Source of the DNA: Microbacterium sp. SSM24
Lineage (GTDB): Bacteria > Actinomycetota > Actinomycetes > Actinomycetales > Microbacteriaceae
Direction of reading: 5' to 3'
Length of the DNA: 64,000 nt
Assembly (NCBI RefSeq): GCF_025989145.1
Contig: NZ_JAPDNQ010000001.1
Span: 434,001 to 498,000 of the forward strand
Part shown: positions 37,310 through 42,683 of the stretch, one piece after another
Numbering within the stretch: position 1 is the stretch's first letter
Layout: each line of letters begins with the position of its first letter
Position numbers and translations under genes: made by a program
Notes under the pieces: model-generated
The model's database searches: none
What the model saw: the letters and a program-made list of their open reading frames with translations, nothing else
What the model was told of the DNA's origin: nothing

Positions 37310-37798
37310 TTACGCGGCCTCGGCGGTCTCGAGCTTTTCGCGAAGCGCGTCGATGGTCGCGGCAGCCTTGCCCATCGTCGCCTTCATCATGCCCGCAGCC
37401 TTCGCAAGCAGAACCTCACGGCTCTCGAGCGAGGCGTACTTGTTGACCTCGTCGGCGGTGAGGGAGTTGCCCTCGAAAACGCCGCCCTTGATCACGAGAA
37501 GCGGGTTGGCCTTGGCGAAGTCACGCAGAGCCTTCGCGGTGGCGACGAAGTCGCCGTGCACGAACGCGATGGCCGACGGACCCTTGAGGTCCTCGTCCAG
37601 CGACGTGATCCCCGCGTTGTTCGCGGCGATCTTGGTCAGCGTGTTCTTCACCACGGCGTATTCCGCGTCCTGACGGATGTTGTTGCGCAGCTGCTTGAGC
37701 TGGGCAACCGTCAGACCGCGGTACTCGGTCAGCAGAACGGCGTTCGAGTCCTCGAAGTTCTTCGTGAGCTCGGCAACCGATGCGTCCTTCTGCGCCAT
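37310..37798 (-). CDS. rplJ: 50S ribosomal protein L10
   Basis: 162 residues, with the RNA-binding N-terminal domain ([35 protein letters not shown]) and the C-terminal helix that anchors L7/L12 dimers. ATG at 37796-37798 is chosen because AAGGAG lies 6-7 nt upstream; a GTG two codons earlier is less likely. L10 usually represses its own operon through the leader RNA described next. Confidence 0.97.
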
Positions 37799-38013
37799 GG
37801 TCACTCCTTGTGTGTGTGAGACGCTCCGCGGTGGCGGGGCGCCGGCCTCGACGTCGGCTCATCTGCTCTCGTCACGGCAAAGAAAAAAGCTCCGGCGCAA
37901 GCGCACGGAGCAGGATTCGGGAGAATCATTCGTGACACCTGCGCGGGCCCCTGCGATGCAGTGCTTCGATCCCCTGCGCTTGCGCGCGTGGCGATGACCG
38001 GCGGTCTTCGGTT
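37799..38013 (-). promoter_or_regulatory. rplJ leader RNA (L10 leader-like)
   Basis: About 215 nt of untranslated leader precede rplJ. Near its 5' end it contains CCGAAGACCGCCGGTC, close to the AGACCGC(A/C)GGT element I recall from L10 leaders of actinobacteria, and further on several short inverted repeats. Identification rests on position and that motif; a covariance search would settle it. Confidence 0.55.
37883..37912 (-). terminator. Intrinsic terminator / attenuator in the rplJ leader
   Basis: On the minus strand GCTCCG...CGGAGC is followed by TTTTTT, about 85 nt before the rplJ start. It is the only hairpin with a run of six Ts that I found in the window. Placed inside the leader, it is most likely an attenuator; it could also stop transcripts coming from upstream. 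Confidence 0.7.
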
Positions 38014-38019
38014 GCCACG

Positions 38020-38048
38020 AGTCTACGCGATGCCCCGATCCGGGCCAA
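38020..38048 (-). promoter_or_regulatory. rplJL promoter
   Basis: On the minus strand TTGGCC (38043-38048), a 17-bp spacer and TAGACT (38020-38025) form a good sigma-A-type promoter that would start the L10 leader near 38013. The same promoter sequence recurs at 41470-41504, 3.4 kb away. Confidence 0.65.
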
Positions 38049-38055
38049 ATCGGGG
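38021..38055. repeat. Left boundary direct repeat (overlaps the rplJ promoter)
   Basis: 35 bp that match 41470-41504 at 33 positions, same orientation. The core GCCCCGATCCGGGCCAA then AATCGGGGC also forms an 8-bp hairpin. Flanking sequence on either side is unrelated between the two copies. Confidence 0.85.
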
Positions 38056-38069
38056 CGACGGCGCCGGAT

Positions 38070-38174
38070 TCATCGCACGAGGAGGACGATCGCGCCCGCG
38101 AGCAGCCCTAGCCCGAGCAGCCACGGGAGCATGATCCCGAGCACCACGGCGAGCCCGGCGAGGACGGCCATCAT
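38070..38174 (-). CDS. 34-residue single-helix membrane peptide
   Basis: MMAVLAGLAVVLGIMLPWLLGLGLLAGAIVLLVR: almost entirely hydrophobic, one membrane helix ending in a single Arg. Its ATG overlaps the TGA of the upstream gene (ATGA), which argues that it is translated. Too short for most gene finders. Function unknown. Confidence 0.55.
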   Translation of the reverse strand: MMAVLAGLAVVLGIMLPWLLGLGLLAGAIVLLVR

Positions 38175-38554
38175 CGCGTCGACTTGACTTGGTCACGCAG
38201 CTGCAGCAGGGCGCGGAGCTCCGGGGCGTTCTTCTTGGCGACATTCAACGGCTCGAGGTGATGGTCGTCGACGGTCGCGAATCGGTCGCCGTCGATCACG
38301 ATCGACCCTTCCCACACCCCTTCGGCCGCGCGACGTCGTGCCGGTCCGGCGACGACCGCCATTGGCTCGGCAATCAGTTGGCCGTGTGCGGTCGCGTCGC
38401 CGACGACCCCGGCCAGCGCCCGCCGGAGACGGGTGGGCACCGTGTCGAGGTCTCTCGTGACGTGGAGGGTTGTGCTGCCGCGCATGCCGTTGCCGGTGTG
38501 CAGGTCGTCGAGGATGTCCTCGGGACGGGTGTCGAAGTGGCTGTTGACGTGCAC
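38171..38554 (-). CDS. Hypothetical protein of the element
   Basis: About 127 residues if started at GTG 38552-38554; an ATG at 38678 would add 42 residues of less protein-like sequence. Contains HFDTRPEDILDDLHTGNGMRGSTTLHVTRDLDTVPTRLRRALAGVVGD and VWEGSIVIDGDRFATVDDHHLEPLNVAKKNAPELRALLQL. No family recognised. Coupled to the 34-residue membrane peptide. Divergent from the gene at 38642. Confidence 0.5.
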   Translation of the reverse strand: MHVNSHFDTRPEDILDDLHTGNGMRGSTTLHVTRDLDTVPTRLRRALAGVVGDATAHGQLIAEPMAVVAGPARRRAAEGVWEGSIVIDGDRFATVDDHHLEPLNVAKKNAPELRALLQLRDQVKSTR

Positions 38555-38641
38555 CGTCGGCCGTCGACCTGGTGCGCGGTGACCGTTTCCCAGGTGAGGA
38601 CAGGATCGTGCAGAGAAACCCCGTAGCGGGAGGAGTATCGG

Positions 38642-38893
38642 ATGCCACGAGGCGGACGACGATCCGGGGAATTGGACCACCGCGCCTACGCGTACCTCGA
38701 GCGGGGCGTGAAGGAGATCCTCGAGCTCACCTACCTACGCGCGGGCGCCGACCCCGACTGGGAACGCGTCCGCACGAACGGGTGCGACATCACCGACAGC
38801 CCGGAGCTTTGGACCACGTATCAGCGCTCTAGGCGCAAAGCGTTCGAATCTCGCGTGGAGGGGTACCGAGCAGGGGGTCTCTTCACCGGCTAG
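38642..38893 (+). CDS. Hypothetical 83-residue protein
   Basis: MPRGGRRSGELDHRAYAYLERGVKEILELTYLRAGADPDWERVRTNGCDITDSPELWTTYQRSRRKAFESRV...: basic and probably helical. ATG is preceded by GGGAGGAG at ideal spacing, so expression is likely. No family recognised. Followed by two short hairpins. Confidence 0.6.
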   Translation: MPRGGRRSGELDHRAYAYLERGVKEILELTYLRAGADPDWERVRTNGCDITDSPELWTTYQRSRRKAFESRVEGYRAGGLFTG

Positions 38894-38901
38894 GGAATGG
38901 G

Positions 38902-39043
38902 GAGCGCGGGCTTCGCGCTCACTGGTGGCGCCAGTGGCCACAACGCGGGGCCGCCCCTCTCTGCCCCATCACCAATCATCCCGGCAACGATATCCGGGAG
39001 TGGCCGAGGAGTGGTGGGCGCCCAGCAACGGGTGCCCACCACT
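38902..39043. terminator. Cluster of hairpins in the 38894-39145 gap
   Basis: Three inverted repeats end transcripts from both sides: GAGCGCG/CGCGCTC (38902-38920), ACTGG/CCAGT (38921-38935) and AGTGGTGGGC/GCCCACCACT (39010-39043). No gene is seen in the gap. Confidence 0.55.
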
Positions 39044-39145
39044 CGCCGGGGCGGTCGGCCGCGGGCATGGGAACCGACGTCCGACCGGAAAGATCGATCG
39101 CACTTGCTTCGCGAGACCCCGCGAGTGCGCGTGTGACCTGTGAGG

Positions 39146-39634
39146 CTACCCGCCCTGCCCTGGGCCGGCACCGATGACGATCTCTACCCCGGCCGCAGTG
39201 CACGCTGCGGACACGCCAGAGATCGCTGCGGCAACGGCTGTGTCGCGTGGATCGAACGTGCCAGCCGATGCTGCGGCTAGCGTCCTCACTTCGTTGGCAG
39301 CCTCGTAGATCGCGCCTGGCTCAGCGGGCATGAACTGCCACGCCTCACCAATGGCGTTGGTGACCGCCTGGTACTCGTCTGCAGTGATGGCTCCGGAGTC
39401 CAGGTTGAACTCCGCGCGTGAAGCGATGCCGATGAGACTGGCGACCTGACCGCAGGTCAGCTCACCCGATGGCGTCATGTCCGTCGCGGGATCGGTGGTA
39501 GCCTCCGGCGTCAACGACTGGCTCGGCGTCGATGTCGCTACCGTCGGAGCGCACCCCACAAGGGCGGCGACAGCAAGGCATGCGAGCGTGACACTGAGAG
39601 CTCCGCGGCATCGCCGCAGCTTCACCCGGCTCAC
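39146..39634 (-). CDS. Putative lipoprotein
   Basis: 162 residues from GTG at 39632-39634, which overlaps the stop of the preceding gene (GTGA). Signal peptide with basic start, hydrophobic core LSVTLACLAVAALVGC and lipobox Cys. A Thr/Ser/Pro-rich linker then leads to a small helical domain (SGELTCGQVASLIGIASRAEFNLDSGAITADEYQAVTNAIGEAW). No family recognised. Third gene of a coupled three-gene operon in the putative element. A longer upstream extension is unlikely since it overlaps the upstream gene. Confidence 0.65.
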   Translation of the reverse strand: MSRVKLRRCRGALSVTLACLAVAALVGCAPTVATSTPSQSLTPEATTDPATDMTPSGELTCGQVASLIGIASRAEFNLDSGAITADEYQAVTNAIGEAWQFMPAEPGAIYEAANEVRTLAAASAGTFDPRDTAVAAAISGVSAACTAAGVEIVIGAGPGQGG

Positions 39635-40119
39635 AGCGGTGCCGCCGTGTAGTTGTTGTACGAGAGGTTCGCTGTGAACGACAACTGCAAGGAGGAGCTC
39701 GAAGTGAATCGGGAATTCATGTAAAAGGTTCCGCCAGGGATCGCCGAAGAGCCGTTTGGTTTCACGAACGCACGCCACGCGGTGTTCGGCGAACCCTCTG
39801 CCTTTGCAATCTGCACACCGCTTGTGTTCCGTACCCCAAGCACGAGAGACGCGCCGCCGCCGACGGAGGTGATCTGCGTTGACATGAGGTTGCGGGCGTA
39901 GCTGTTCGTTCGCGGTACCCACCATTGCTGTACCTCATTGCCGGCGTGCGTCCCGCGGAGGCTGGCGGTTGCAGCCTGCGATGCGGTCGAGGTTCCCGCG
40001 AAGAGGGCTCCCACAAGCAGGGAAGCCAGGAAAACCCGCGTAGCCAAGGGTCGAACCCCACCGCTCGGGCTTGGCCCTGTCAGCAAGACCGTCCCGCGCT
40101 GAGCGATTGCACCAGTCAT
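39631..40119 (-). CDS. Putative secreted protein
   Basis: 162 residues from ATG at 40117-40119, which shares a base with the TAA of the upstream gene. Signal peptide (VFLASLLVGALFAGTSTASQA) and a Ser/Thr/Asn-rich, probably beta-rich secreted domain (GNEVQQWWVPRTNSYARNLMSTQITSVGGGASLVLGVRNTSGVQIAKAEG). G+C is markedly low for the window. No family recognised. Middle gene of the operon. Confidence 0.65.
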   Translation of the reverse strand: MTGAIAQRGTVLLTGPSPSGGVRPLATRVFLASLLVGALFAGTSTASQAATASLRGTHAGNEVQQWWVPRTNSYARNLMSTQITSVGGGASLVLGVRNTSGVQIAKAEGSPNTAWRAFVKPNGSSAIPGGTFYMNSRFTSSSSLQLSFTANLSYNNYTAAPL

Positions 40120-40772
40120 TACTTCGTCACCTCTCCGGTCAGCGACGCACAGTCCGCCTCGTAAATGAGGGCCACGGCGTCGTCCGCCTCGCGGCCAACT
40201 GATCTGGCCCACTTCGGCGCACCTGCAATGTACAGGTCGAACTCGGCGCGCGAGCTCTCCGGCAATGAGAGTCGGTACTGCTCGTTGACCTTTTCGAAGC
40301 GCGCAGAGTCGATAGGGACCTTCGAGCGCGCAGCCTTGAGCTCAGTGCTGATCCACGAGCAACGCCAAAAGTTCATGACGAAGTGATCCACTAGCGGCGC
40401 CTCGTAGAGGTAGACCATGCCCGGCTCTCCATCGAAGAATGTCGGCGGCGTCGAGGGAAAGTTCATTCCCGGCGGGAGCTCGAGCTTCGAAGCGGCTACG
40501 GCTTTCGCCCATTCTGTCGAAACCTCCTGACGCGTGAGCATCCGCGGCTCTTCCGTGGGAGTTGCGCTCGAGTCCGAAGAGAGCGCGCTCGAGGCGAAGG
40601 CGACACCGGCTGAGCCGAGGCCGAGCCCACTGAGCGCGCAGGCAGTTACGACGCCGATCGCGAACGCTCTGGACCTTCGTCGGGAACGGGGACGGTTGGG
40701 CGAGGGTTGCTCCGAGGCCAATTGACGCTCAACTTTCGGTCCGGGGCCGGACTCTGTCGCCGGCCCGCCCAT
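40119..40772 (-). CDS. Putative membrane-anchored or exported protein
   Basis: 217 residues from ATG at 40770-40772; a TTG at 40856 would add 28 residues. An Arg-rich segment (RPRSRRRSRAFAIG) precedes a hydrophobic stretch (VVTACALSGLGLGSAGVAFASS), then an external domain with MVYLYEAPLVDHFVMNFWRCSWISTELKAARSKVPIDSARF. The Arg run could suggest twin-arginine export, but weakly. First gene of the operon; the next two genes start inside their predecessors' stop codons. Confidence 0.62.
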   Translation of the reverse strand: MGGPATESGPGPKVERQLASEQPSPNRPRSRRRSRAFAIGVVTACALSGLGLGSAGVAFASSALSSDSSATPTEEPRMLTRQEVSTEWAKAVAASKLELPPGMNFPSTPPTFFDGEPGMVYLYEAPLVDHFVMNFWRCSWISTELKAARSKVPIDSARFEKVNEQYRLSLPESSRAEFDLYIAGAPKWARSVGREADDAVALIYEADCASLTGEVTK

Positions 40773-40776
40773 CGAC

Positions 40777-40863
40777 GTGAAGATCAGTGTTCCGAAGCCG
40801 ACGGGTACCGACGCGGATGCGGTCGCCGCTGGCTTTGCGGATGCTCTGTGGGACAAGGTATGA
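40777..40863 (+). CDS. Possible 28-codon leader or gene remnant
   Basis: From GTG 40777 the frame reads VKISVPKPTGTDADAVAAGFADALWDKV and stops at TGA 40861-40863, overlapping the ATG of the next gene (ATGA). The composition looks protein-like, as if it were the end of a longer gene. No ribosome binding site is seen before the GTG. Either a short coupled peptide or a truncated gene. Confidence 0.3.
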   Translation: MKISVPKPTGTDADAVAAGFADALWDKV

Positions 40864-41363
40864 CCATGATTGCGGAGACACCGGCGCCTGCCCGAACGTT
40901 TGCTGCTGCGATCGTCTTCACCGCGTTAGCCGCGATCACCTTGGCACTCGCTTGGCTAGGCGCAACGGGCGAAGTCCCTTGGCGGTACAACGCGGACCAT
41001 CGAGCGCAAATCTGGTGGCAGTACATCACTCTCAGCGTCGTGGCGCTCGGAGCAGTGGGGATGGTCTTGGTGCTGGGCGGACGAGGCAAGGGCCGACTCC
41101 CGTGGCCCCGCACGGCTCGTGCGGTCGGGGTCGGACTCGTCGTGATCTCCCTCCTGTGGGGGGCCGCCATCTTCATGTTCGGTCTCATTGGCGGTGACGC
41201 AGTCGCGGCGTTCGTCATAGCGGCAGCATCGGTCGCGCCGGCTCTGTCAGTCTCACTGGCCACAGTATGGGTCGGATTCTCCAGCCGACGCCTTGGGGCG
41301 ATGCTGATCGCGCTCGGAATTCTGGTCTGCGGTGCGATCGCGATGTCCTTCGCGTTCAATTGA
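40860..41363 (+). CDS. Four-helix membrane protein
   Basis: 167 residues with four hydrophobic segments: FAAAIVFTALAAITLALAWLGA, WWQYITLSVVALGAVGMVLVLGG, VGVGLVVISLLWGAAIFMFGLI and LGAMLIALGILVCGAIAMSFAFN, plus a further weaker one. No catalytic motif, no family recognised. Divergent from the exported-protein operon, so the two may share regulation. Last gene before the right repeat. Confidence 0.6.
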   Translation: MTMIAETPAPARTFAAAIVFTALAAITLALAWLGATGEVPWRYNADHRAQIWWQYITLSVVALGAVGMVLVLGGRGKGRLPWPRTARAVGVGLVVISLLWGAAIFMFGLIGGDAVAAFVIAAASVAPALSVSLATVWVGFSSRRLGAMLIALGILVCGAIAMSFAFN

Positions 41364-41469
41364 TCCGCACGGGACTTCGGCGCGGCGAGGTGGCTCATTC
41401 GTACACGTCAACGGCCACTGATGCGCAATGTGGAGTGGATTTCGGGCTCAGTCGGATAACGATCTCCCG

Positions 41470-41504
41470 GTCTACGCGAAGCCCCGATCCGGGCCAAATC
41501 GAGG
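41470..41504. repeat. Right boundary direct repeat (rplJ promoter copy)
   Basis: Matches 38021-38055 with two differences. On the minus strand it keeps TTGGCC, a 17-bp spacer and TAGACC, so it may still fire into the element. It begins 8 bp after the stop codon of the AlkZ-like gene. Confidence 0.85.
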
Positions 41505-41512
41505 CCGCGCGG

Positions 41513-42589
41513 CTACGCGGTGATGAAGTCGCGGTACCGGTCGAGCGCGGCGGCGACCTCTTCTGCGGTCGCCGCGCCGGCGGTGAAGAGCTCGGGGATG
41601 GGATCGTCGGCGTGACGCCCCACCGCGAGCGAATGGGTCCATACGCCGATGGCCTCTCCGCGCGCGACGATGATCGGCCGCACGATCCCGTTCATGCTCG
41701 GTCCGATCGCCCGCAGGAACTCCGGGGCGCACGGAATCGTCCGGTCGGCATAGGAGAGGTAGTACTCCTCGAACGGCGGCAGCGCGACCACCCCGGGAGC
41801 TGCGGCCGAGCGCCGCGGCGCCGGCGCGGCGACGTATTGGGGCTCAGGGTCGTCGCCGACGAGGGTGAGGCGATCCGATGCCTGTTCGGCGGCGGTGCGC
41901 GAGACTCCGAGCGGGAGCCCCGACCACCAGGAGAAGTCGCGCGCGCCGGCCGGGCCGTGGGAGGCGATGTAGCGGAAGAAGAACTCGGCGAGCGGATCGG
42001 CGGGGGACGCGGCATCCGCTACCCACTCCTCGGCGAGGACGATGTACTGCTCGCGCGTGGGCCCGCTCTCGCGCGGGACGACGGGCCCCTGGCAGACGAC
42101 GACGCGCAGCGAGAGCGCGACGAGCAGGTGATAGCCGCGCTGATGCGCCGTGCTGACGCCGCCGGCGTCGAGCACCGCGAACAGCTCTTTGCGGGTGAGG
42201 CGGTTGCCGCCGGCGAGCGCCGCCCGCGTGAGGACCTCGGCGCGGGCGAGCTCGTCGTCGTCGATCGCCTCGGCCCGCCGGACCGCCGCAGCCTGCCGCG
42301 CCTGCCGCTCCCCCGTGAGCGAGAGCACCCAGGCGAGGTCCCGCGGCGGGATGACATGGATCGTGCCGCGCATCGTCCACGAACGCACGATCTCTCCGCG
42401 GTCGAACGAGGCGTCGACGTCGCGCACGGTGGTGCGCCCACGCGTGCGAGCGGCGAGCGCCCATCGACCGCCCCAGAACTCCTGCCCCTGGGTCGCCAGC
42501 ATGTGCGACGCCGCCTCGGCGACGGACGCGGCGGGCGCGCTCAGCCGATGCGACCTGAGCCTCGCCTCTCGCACGGACGCAGCATCCAT
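41513..42589 (-). CDS. AlkZ-like winged-helix DNA-binding protein (HTH_42)
   Basis: 358 residues of the HTH_42 / AlkZ-YcaQ superfamily: HMLATQGQEFWGGRWALAART with a Q-x-Q pair (Gln34, Gln36), RSWTMRGTIHVIPPRDLAWVL, and ALPPFEEYYLSYADR near the C-terminus. Known members are DNA glycosylases acting on crosslinked or bulky alkylated bases; the Q-x-Q pair fits the AlkZ group. Activity here is inferred. ATG has CATGAT exactly 6 nt upstream, a leaderless start. Its 3' end borders the right repeat of the putative element. Confidence 0.8.
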   Translation of the reverse strand: MDAASVREARLRSHRLSAPAASVAEAASHMLATQGQEFWGGRWALAARTRGRTTVRDVDASFDRGEIVRSWTMRGTIHVIPPRDLAWVLSLTGERQARQAAAVRRAEAIDDDELARAEVLTRAALAGGNRLTRKELFAVLDAGGVSTAHQRGYHLLVALSLRVVVCQGPVVPRESGPTREQYIVLAEEWVADAASPADPLAEFFFRYIASHGPAGARDFSWWSGLPLGVSRTAAEQASDRLTLVGDDPEPQYVAAPAPRRSAAAPGVVALPPFEEYYLSYADRTIPCAPEFLRAIGPSMNGIVRPIIVARGEAIGVWTHSLAVGRHADDPIPELFTAGAATAEEVAAALDRYRDFITA

Positions 42590-42622
42590 GCCCCCATCAT
42601 GCCGCGCGCTCCCGACAGACGT

Positions 42623-42678
42623 CAGTCGCCAAGACACGCCGGCGCATGCCTTCCCCGGCCGGCGTGTCTTGGCGAGTG
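42623..42678. repeat. Palindromic repeat, family A, copy 4
   Basis: Arms CGCCAAGACACGCCGGC (42627-42643) and perfect complement (42658-42674), 14-nt loop, with weaker pairing beyond. It lies between two minus-strand genes, 5 bp before the stop codon of the dehydrogenase gene. Confidence 0.92.
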
Positions 42679-42683
42679 AAGGG

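Follow-up and report, generated by a model that had tools for sequence, protein, structure and literature searches.

Probable origin of an element-like interval upstream of rplJ in Microbacterium sp. SSM24 as a decayed and refilled DUF4349 locus

Upstream of rplJ, the presumed gene for ribosomal protein L10, the chromosome of Microbacterium sp. SSM24 carries a 3.4 kb interval flanked by two nearly identical copies of a short sequence, the copy next to the gene being very probably its promoter. The arrangement invites a question: is the interval a mobile element that integrated at a ribosomal-protein promoter and rebuilt it at the junction, as a first, sequence-only reading proposed, or is it part of the chromosome that has come to look like one? 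The DNA concerned lies in a stretch of 64,000 nucleotides (contig NZ_JAPDNQ010000001.1, positions 434,001 to 498,000), called the window here, whose own numbering we use throughout. We think it probable that the interval is no mobile element, but rather a locus once occupied by a gene of the DUF4349 family that decayed, was refilled with other DNA, and gained its extra promoter copy by recombination. The landmarks are these, from left to right:

37310..37804, minus strand: presumed rplJ, from the list of open reading frames (ORFs)
38021..38056, read on the minus strand: left copy of the repeat, probably the native rplJ promoter, its core being conserved in relatives
41470..41505: right copy of the repeat, 7 bases past the stop codon of the AlkZ-like gene
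41513..42637, minus strand: AlkZ-like gene (PF06224, E 6.5e-42)

Relics of a DUF4349 gene at both edges

Integrative elements are bounded by attachment-site repeats, and these restore the target. If a satellite or decayed element of this kind had inserted itself site-specifically at the rplJ promoter, as the sequence-only reading suggested, the direct repeats at the edges, the relatives that lack the insert, and the foreign look of the interior would all be accounted for. What this account does not lead one to expect is the sequence found immediately inside the repeats, where both edges resemble pieces of a gene that is native to this very spot in other genomes:

38055..38180, minus strand: relic of a DUF4349 gene, corresponding to the C-terminal membrane segment of its protein (tblastn, profile and DNA match)
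41382..41468, minus strand: DUF4349 upstream relic with the start codon, lying one base from the right copy (nhmmer profile)

Comparisons were made within a set of 366 genomes of the genus—that of SSM24, G000, and 365 others. The left relic matches the DUF4349 protein of G085 at 61.9% over 42 residues (tblastn, composition correction off; E 7e-11) and is found again, at E 6.4e-11, with a profile of four rplJ-linked DUF4349 proteins. At DNA level it shares 74% identity with the DUF4349 genes of G085 and G031 along some 100 bases; counted over 102 bases, 70–74 agree with G085, G031 and G167, and 61 with G131. The right relic emerges from the window at E 5.9e-5, the next match being at 1.1, when the window is searched with an nhmmer profile of four DUF4349 upstream regions. 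Over the loci examined it scores E 0.0015, with the next unrelated match at 0.72 and only the four source regions of the profile scoring better. In pairwise comparison with G167 and with G085, none of 500 shuffles reached its score. An ATCGTTA motif stands 64 bases before the presumed ATG here and in G085.

Taken together, these matches show the presumed relics in the order and orientation of an intact DUF4349 locus, the left one better supported than the right. The edges of the interval look chromosomal, not like the ends of an element, because both carry relics of a DUF4349 gene native upstream of rplJ.

That such a gene belongs there in some Microbacterium genomes is seen directly. The G085 protein that matches the left edge is a DUF4349 protein (PF14257, confirmed in G167 also), and its gene immediately precedes rplJ, on the same strand. 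Used as a query, it finds some match in 346 of the 366 genomes; the best four places, in G085, G031, G167 and G131, are all directly upstream of rplJ, and the next eight are without rplJ. In G167 the gene order reads monooxygenase-like, aldehyde-dehydrogenase-like (both names presumed), AlkZ, intact DUF4349, promoter, rplJ, with no promoter copy after AlkZ. Nor are any of the four intact loci bracketed by a second promoter copy (at most 21 of 36 bases), so the repeat does not act like an attachment site there. With the edges read as native-gene relics, and the intact loci lacking a second copy, we consider it unlikely that the repeat is an attachment site or a target duplication, and the proposal of an element that targets the rplJ promoter and rebuilds it is not supported.

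Two observations on these proteins stand apart from the origin of the interval. The four genes directly upstream of rplJ (loci L154, L155, L120 and L156) form a distinct DUF4349 subfamily, and have a conserved ATCGTTA motif, which precedes the start codon by 63–64 bases in three of these genomes (63 in G167 and G031) and by 52 in G131.

The repeat and the two forms of the locus

The sequence-only reading put the direct duplication at 35 bp; it stands, and extends to 36 bases (38021-38056 and 41470-41505), 34 of them identical, at a spacing of 3449. Equally well founded was its remark that the right copy lies just after the preceding chromosomal gene. Its identification of the left copy as the rplJ promoter is very probably right, too, judging by position and by a conserved GATTTGG core, which occurs at the same distance from rplJ in 115 of 137 rplJ loci. 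A strict sigma-70 scan listed no promoter anywhere in 37800-41700, left copy included, and so the promoter call rests on conservation. The –10 element reads TAGACT in the left copy and TAGACC in the right. As part of our explanation, the left copy is predicted still to serve as the promoter of rplJ.

Could the resemblance of the copies be fortuitous, or the repeat be a common one? rplJ is matched in 361 of the 366 genomes, with places listed for part of these. Among the 137 rplJ loci examined, 22 were left unscored, 6 for having less than 1 kb upstream and 16 for lacking the searched promoter core; the remaining 115 were scored for a second promoter copy, and 111 of these, 80 of them distinct, are not from the SSM24 genome. 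The search reached 1.2–9.6 kb upstream, with at least 3.4 kb available at 61 distinct loci. None of the 80 contains a double copy, and the same junctions were not seen elsewhere; the second match closest to a locus's own promoter, sought on the same strand, reaches 23 of 36. Because nothing elsewhere exceeds this, chance similarity can be rejected: the double promoter copy is far above chance. A dispersed repeat is rejected as well, in keeping with the sequence-only reading, since the 3.4 Mb genome of SSM24 holds the 36-mer in exactly two places (degenerate pattern, up to 3 mismatches; no match to a reversed-pattern control).

Convergence on a shared terminator is the other way in which two unrelated stretches might come to look alike. 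Both copies can be folded into a GC-rich hairpin, yet the folds lie near those of shuffled sequences (z –1.14 for the right copy, –2.07 for the left, and –0.63 for the corresponding stretch of G169), and a terminator scan listed neither copy as terminator-like. We have set this candidate aside; the right copy may act as a terminator, but that would leave the 34 identical bases unexplained.

The copies agree with each other (34 of 36) better than the promoters of any pair of genomes compared, the best of which reach 32; for the nearest relative, G169, the figure is 31. They have in common, moreover, states at sites 15 and 29 that are absent from six relatives of the AlkZ clade. Because of these shared sites, and because their mutual identity exceeds that of any genome pair, the copies are unlikely to be old: the second is most likely a short and fairly recent copy of the rplJ promoter.

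Where might it have come from? Five relatives—G169, G047, G055, G252 and G337—have what the sequence-only reading predicted as the empty site: the AlkZ-like gene, a few bases, a single promoter copy and rplJ, with no insert. Of these, G169 is the nearest relative found, its AlkZ gene being 90% and its LacI-like neighbour 96% identical to those of SSM24. Apart from SSM24 itself, rplJ adjoins AlkZ at 6 of 20 AlkZ loci, those of the five short-form genomes and of G167, and not at the other 13. In a five-gene tree, G000 falls with G169, G337 with G167, and G047 with G055 and G252. The clade, then, holds both short and DUF4349-bearing forms. Since both occur, and since SSM24 combines the AlkZ–promoter junction of one with the DUF4349–promoter–rplJ end of the other, we infer recombination between them.

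The course of events that we think probable would begin from an arrangement like that of G167, in which the AlkZ-like gene and the rplJ promoter had a DUF4349 gene between them. The body of this DUF4349 gene would have been lost, and ordinary illegitimate recombination would have put debris of horizontal origin in its place: a piece of an exported-protein cassette, a gene for a membrane protein, one for 83 amino acids, and part of a large helicase gene. The extra promoter copy after AlkZ would have been made, at our best guess, by recombination between short and DUF4349-bearing forms in close kin, in either direction, the exchange joining the AlkZ–promoter end of one form to the start of the other.

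Several observations weigh against this account. The left relic corresponds to a membrane segment, and the same stretch has weaker DNA matches in several other genomes. The right relic is short; its margins over the shuffles are narrow (a score of 23 against a maximum of 22 for G167, and 19 against 18 for G085), its pairwise test failed for G031 and G131 (133 and 222 of 500 shuffles reaching the score), and a pairwise scan of the whole window put the junction first with G167 only. Outside the clade, some rplJ promoters have the same bases at sites 15 and 29. No genome was found with the cargo and one promoter copy, or with two copies and no cargo, to show the order of events, and the recombination step is itself deduced. 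As to common ancestry of the gene at this spot within the clade, G167 carries it, and it is missing from G169—the closest relative, and a short form—and from four others. A DUF4349 gene is rarely seen at rplJ, besides. For 77 distinct rplJ loci, that of SSM24 included, 3 kb or more of upstream DNA could be compared; these had been chosen by rplJ similarity or for specific questions. A search with the four-protein profile placed DUF4349 no more than 300 bases from rplJ in the relic here and in G085, G031, G167 and G131, but nowhere else, which makes 4 of the 76 distinct loci other than that of SSM24. Three of these four had been included because they carry DUF4349, so the unbiased rate is 1 in 73. 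With the short form in the closest relative, the DUF4349 form may have been imported, not inherited.

These last points favor a second explanation, which we hold to be possible, though on the unlikely side: a fragment from upstream of rplJ in another strain, bearing DUF4349 and the cargo, was taken into a short-form chromosome through homologous recombination at rplJ, so that the host promoter ended up beside AlkZ and the incoming one beside rplJ. It sits well with the short form of G169 and the four further clade members, and with the rarity of the gene among loci not chosen for it. Against it, the two copies have sites 15 and 29 in common, as no clade relative does, and only a very near relative could therefore have been the donor; next to the left copy, furthermore, stands an rplJ leader that closely resembles that of G169.

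Improbable, in our estimation, is a third explanation, in which the duplication predates the split from G169 and recombination between the copies deleted DUF4349 in the relatives, giving rise to the short form. In the five short-form relatives the promoter follows AlkZ about as closely as the right copy does here, and deletion between copies would yield just that layout. G167, however, keeps its DUF4349 gene and has no second copy after AlkZ, and the copies are more alike than such an age would lead one to expect, unless gene conversion has maintained them.

The DNA between the relics

Some 3.2 kb of unrelated sequence separates the two relics. Its ORFs, with four of them characterized by eye, are as follows:

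38192..38554, minus strand: fragment of a large helicase gene; 45% over 124 residues (G177) and 42% over 123 (G228)
38642..38893, plus strand: conserved ORF of 83 amino acids; 51–72% over 40–83 residues to stretches in other Microbacterium genomes
39146..39625, minus strand: ORF of 159 amino acids, lipoprotein-like by eye; 31–34% over 67–95 residues beside the p216 homologue in G300, G249 and G128
39631..40119, minus strand: ORF of 162 amino acids, exported-protein-like by eye; 34–43% over 81–141 residues in the same three loci
40119..40769, minus strand: p216, ORF of 216 amino acids, a membrane-anchored exported protein by eye; 60% homologue P0003
40863..41363, plus strand: ORF of 166 amino acids, a multi-pass membrane protein by eye; one 52% homologue besides itself

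The interior was said by the sequence-only reading to include stretches of lower guanine plus cytosine (G+C) content. This is so in comparison with the AlkZ side, but not with rplJ and rplL, than which it is not lower. At third codon positions the cargo ORFs have a G+C fraction of 0.72–0.80, against 0.88–0.96 for rplJ, AlkZ and the aldehyde dehydrogenase gene.

The relatives of these ORFs are scattered. p216 has a match, mostly a weak one, in 12 of the 366 genomes, SSM24 included, and the 159-residue ORF in 2 of 58 counted in the same way, the other match being weak. The 83-residue ORF has one protein match at 73% and no match in Pfam. The insert DNA as a whole matches 103 of the 365 other genomes, with two candidates scored per genome, in short pieces only: the match with the best E value covers 230 bases at 71%, and the longest 370 bases at 65%. 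In plasmid and phage collections the insert DNA has no match. A pattern for p216 relatives in viral contigs was matched by 13 stretches, none of them confirmed, and the sole plasmid hit of p216, a weak one, is from Curtobacterium pusillum (29.6%, covering 63% of p216). With no DNA match in those collections and no confirmed viral relative of p216, we rejected a phage or plasmid origin of the cargo.

The sequence-only reading held that no recombinase is encoded, and none was found nearby: none of the six cargo ORFs matches a recombinase family. Three tyrosine-recombinase-domain matches occur in the SSM24 genome, all outside the window; the genome-wide search covered tyrosine recombinases, not serine recombinases or transposases. 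These negatives, and the finding of nothing longer than short block pieces of the insert in the rest of the genus, add to the evidence from the edges, and make a mobile element a most improbable explanation of the interval.

Some features of the cargo and its relatives merit description for their own sake. Homologues of the 216-, 162- and 159-residue proteins occur together in G300, G249 and G128 (L199, L200, L202), where they form a recurring cluster with a further exported-looking protein and a protein of 737–786 amino acids. In G300 the exported-looking protein has a TAT-signal match below the Pfam cut-off, and the large protein has Rv2525c-like glycoside-hydrolase and peptidoglycan-binding domains. 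The 739-residue cluster protein of G249 has no match in the SSM24 genome, a result that is uninformative for lack of a positive control. The helicase fragment has as relatives a protein of 1889 amino acids in G177, encoded beside a Zeta-toxin gene (L160:2536-9297), and, in G228, a frame that is open for 1887 codons (L161). Helicase_C, ResIII and Zeta_toxin domains are present at the G177 locus, which is perhaps a mobile region; the NCBIfam matches of the 1889-residue helicase are all below their cut-offs. Outside the interval, an inverted repeat at 42622-42679, with arms of 22 bases (95% complementary) and a loop of 14, lies between the aldehyde-dehydrogenase-like and AlkZ-like genes. It overlaps the listed GTG start of AlkZ, the true start of which may be further in.

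Likeness to known systems

A literature search turned up nothing on the rplJ promoter as an integration site or genomic island, nor on DUF4349 in Microbacterium. Set beside integrative elements in general, the interval is alike in having direct repeats similar in length to an attachment core and in keeping the target function at one copy. It is unlike them in that no recombinase was found, that its edges are apparent relics of a native gene, and that intact relatives of this gene lack the second repeat. It has more the look of a case in which a gene decays and is replaced at a variable boundary in the chromosome—the ordinary turnover of accessory genes—where, as here, gene remnants flank unrelated and compositionally distinct cargo, and gene content at the spot differs among relatives. 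It departs from that pattern, too, in that a 36-base copy of a ribosomal-protein promoter on one side mimics an insertion junction.

One might go further, and suppose that short copies of the rplJ promoter are recurrent points of recombination in Microbacterium, at which upstream genes are exchanged while the essential ribosomal operon remains unharmed. We give this idea only a slim chance of being correct. The more general implication is that a decayed gene and a short copy of a promoter can together pass for an integrated element, even to the point of apparent empty sites in relatives. Inspecting the extreme edges of such an interval for relics of native genes is a cheap and discriminating test, and one that can be used for similar findings.

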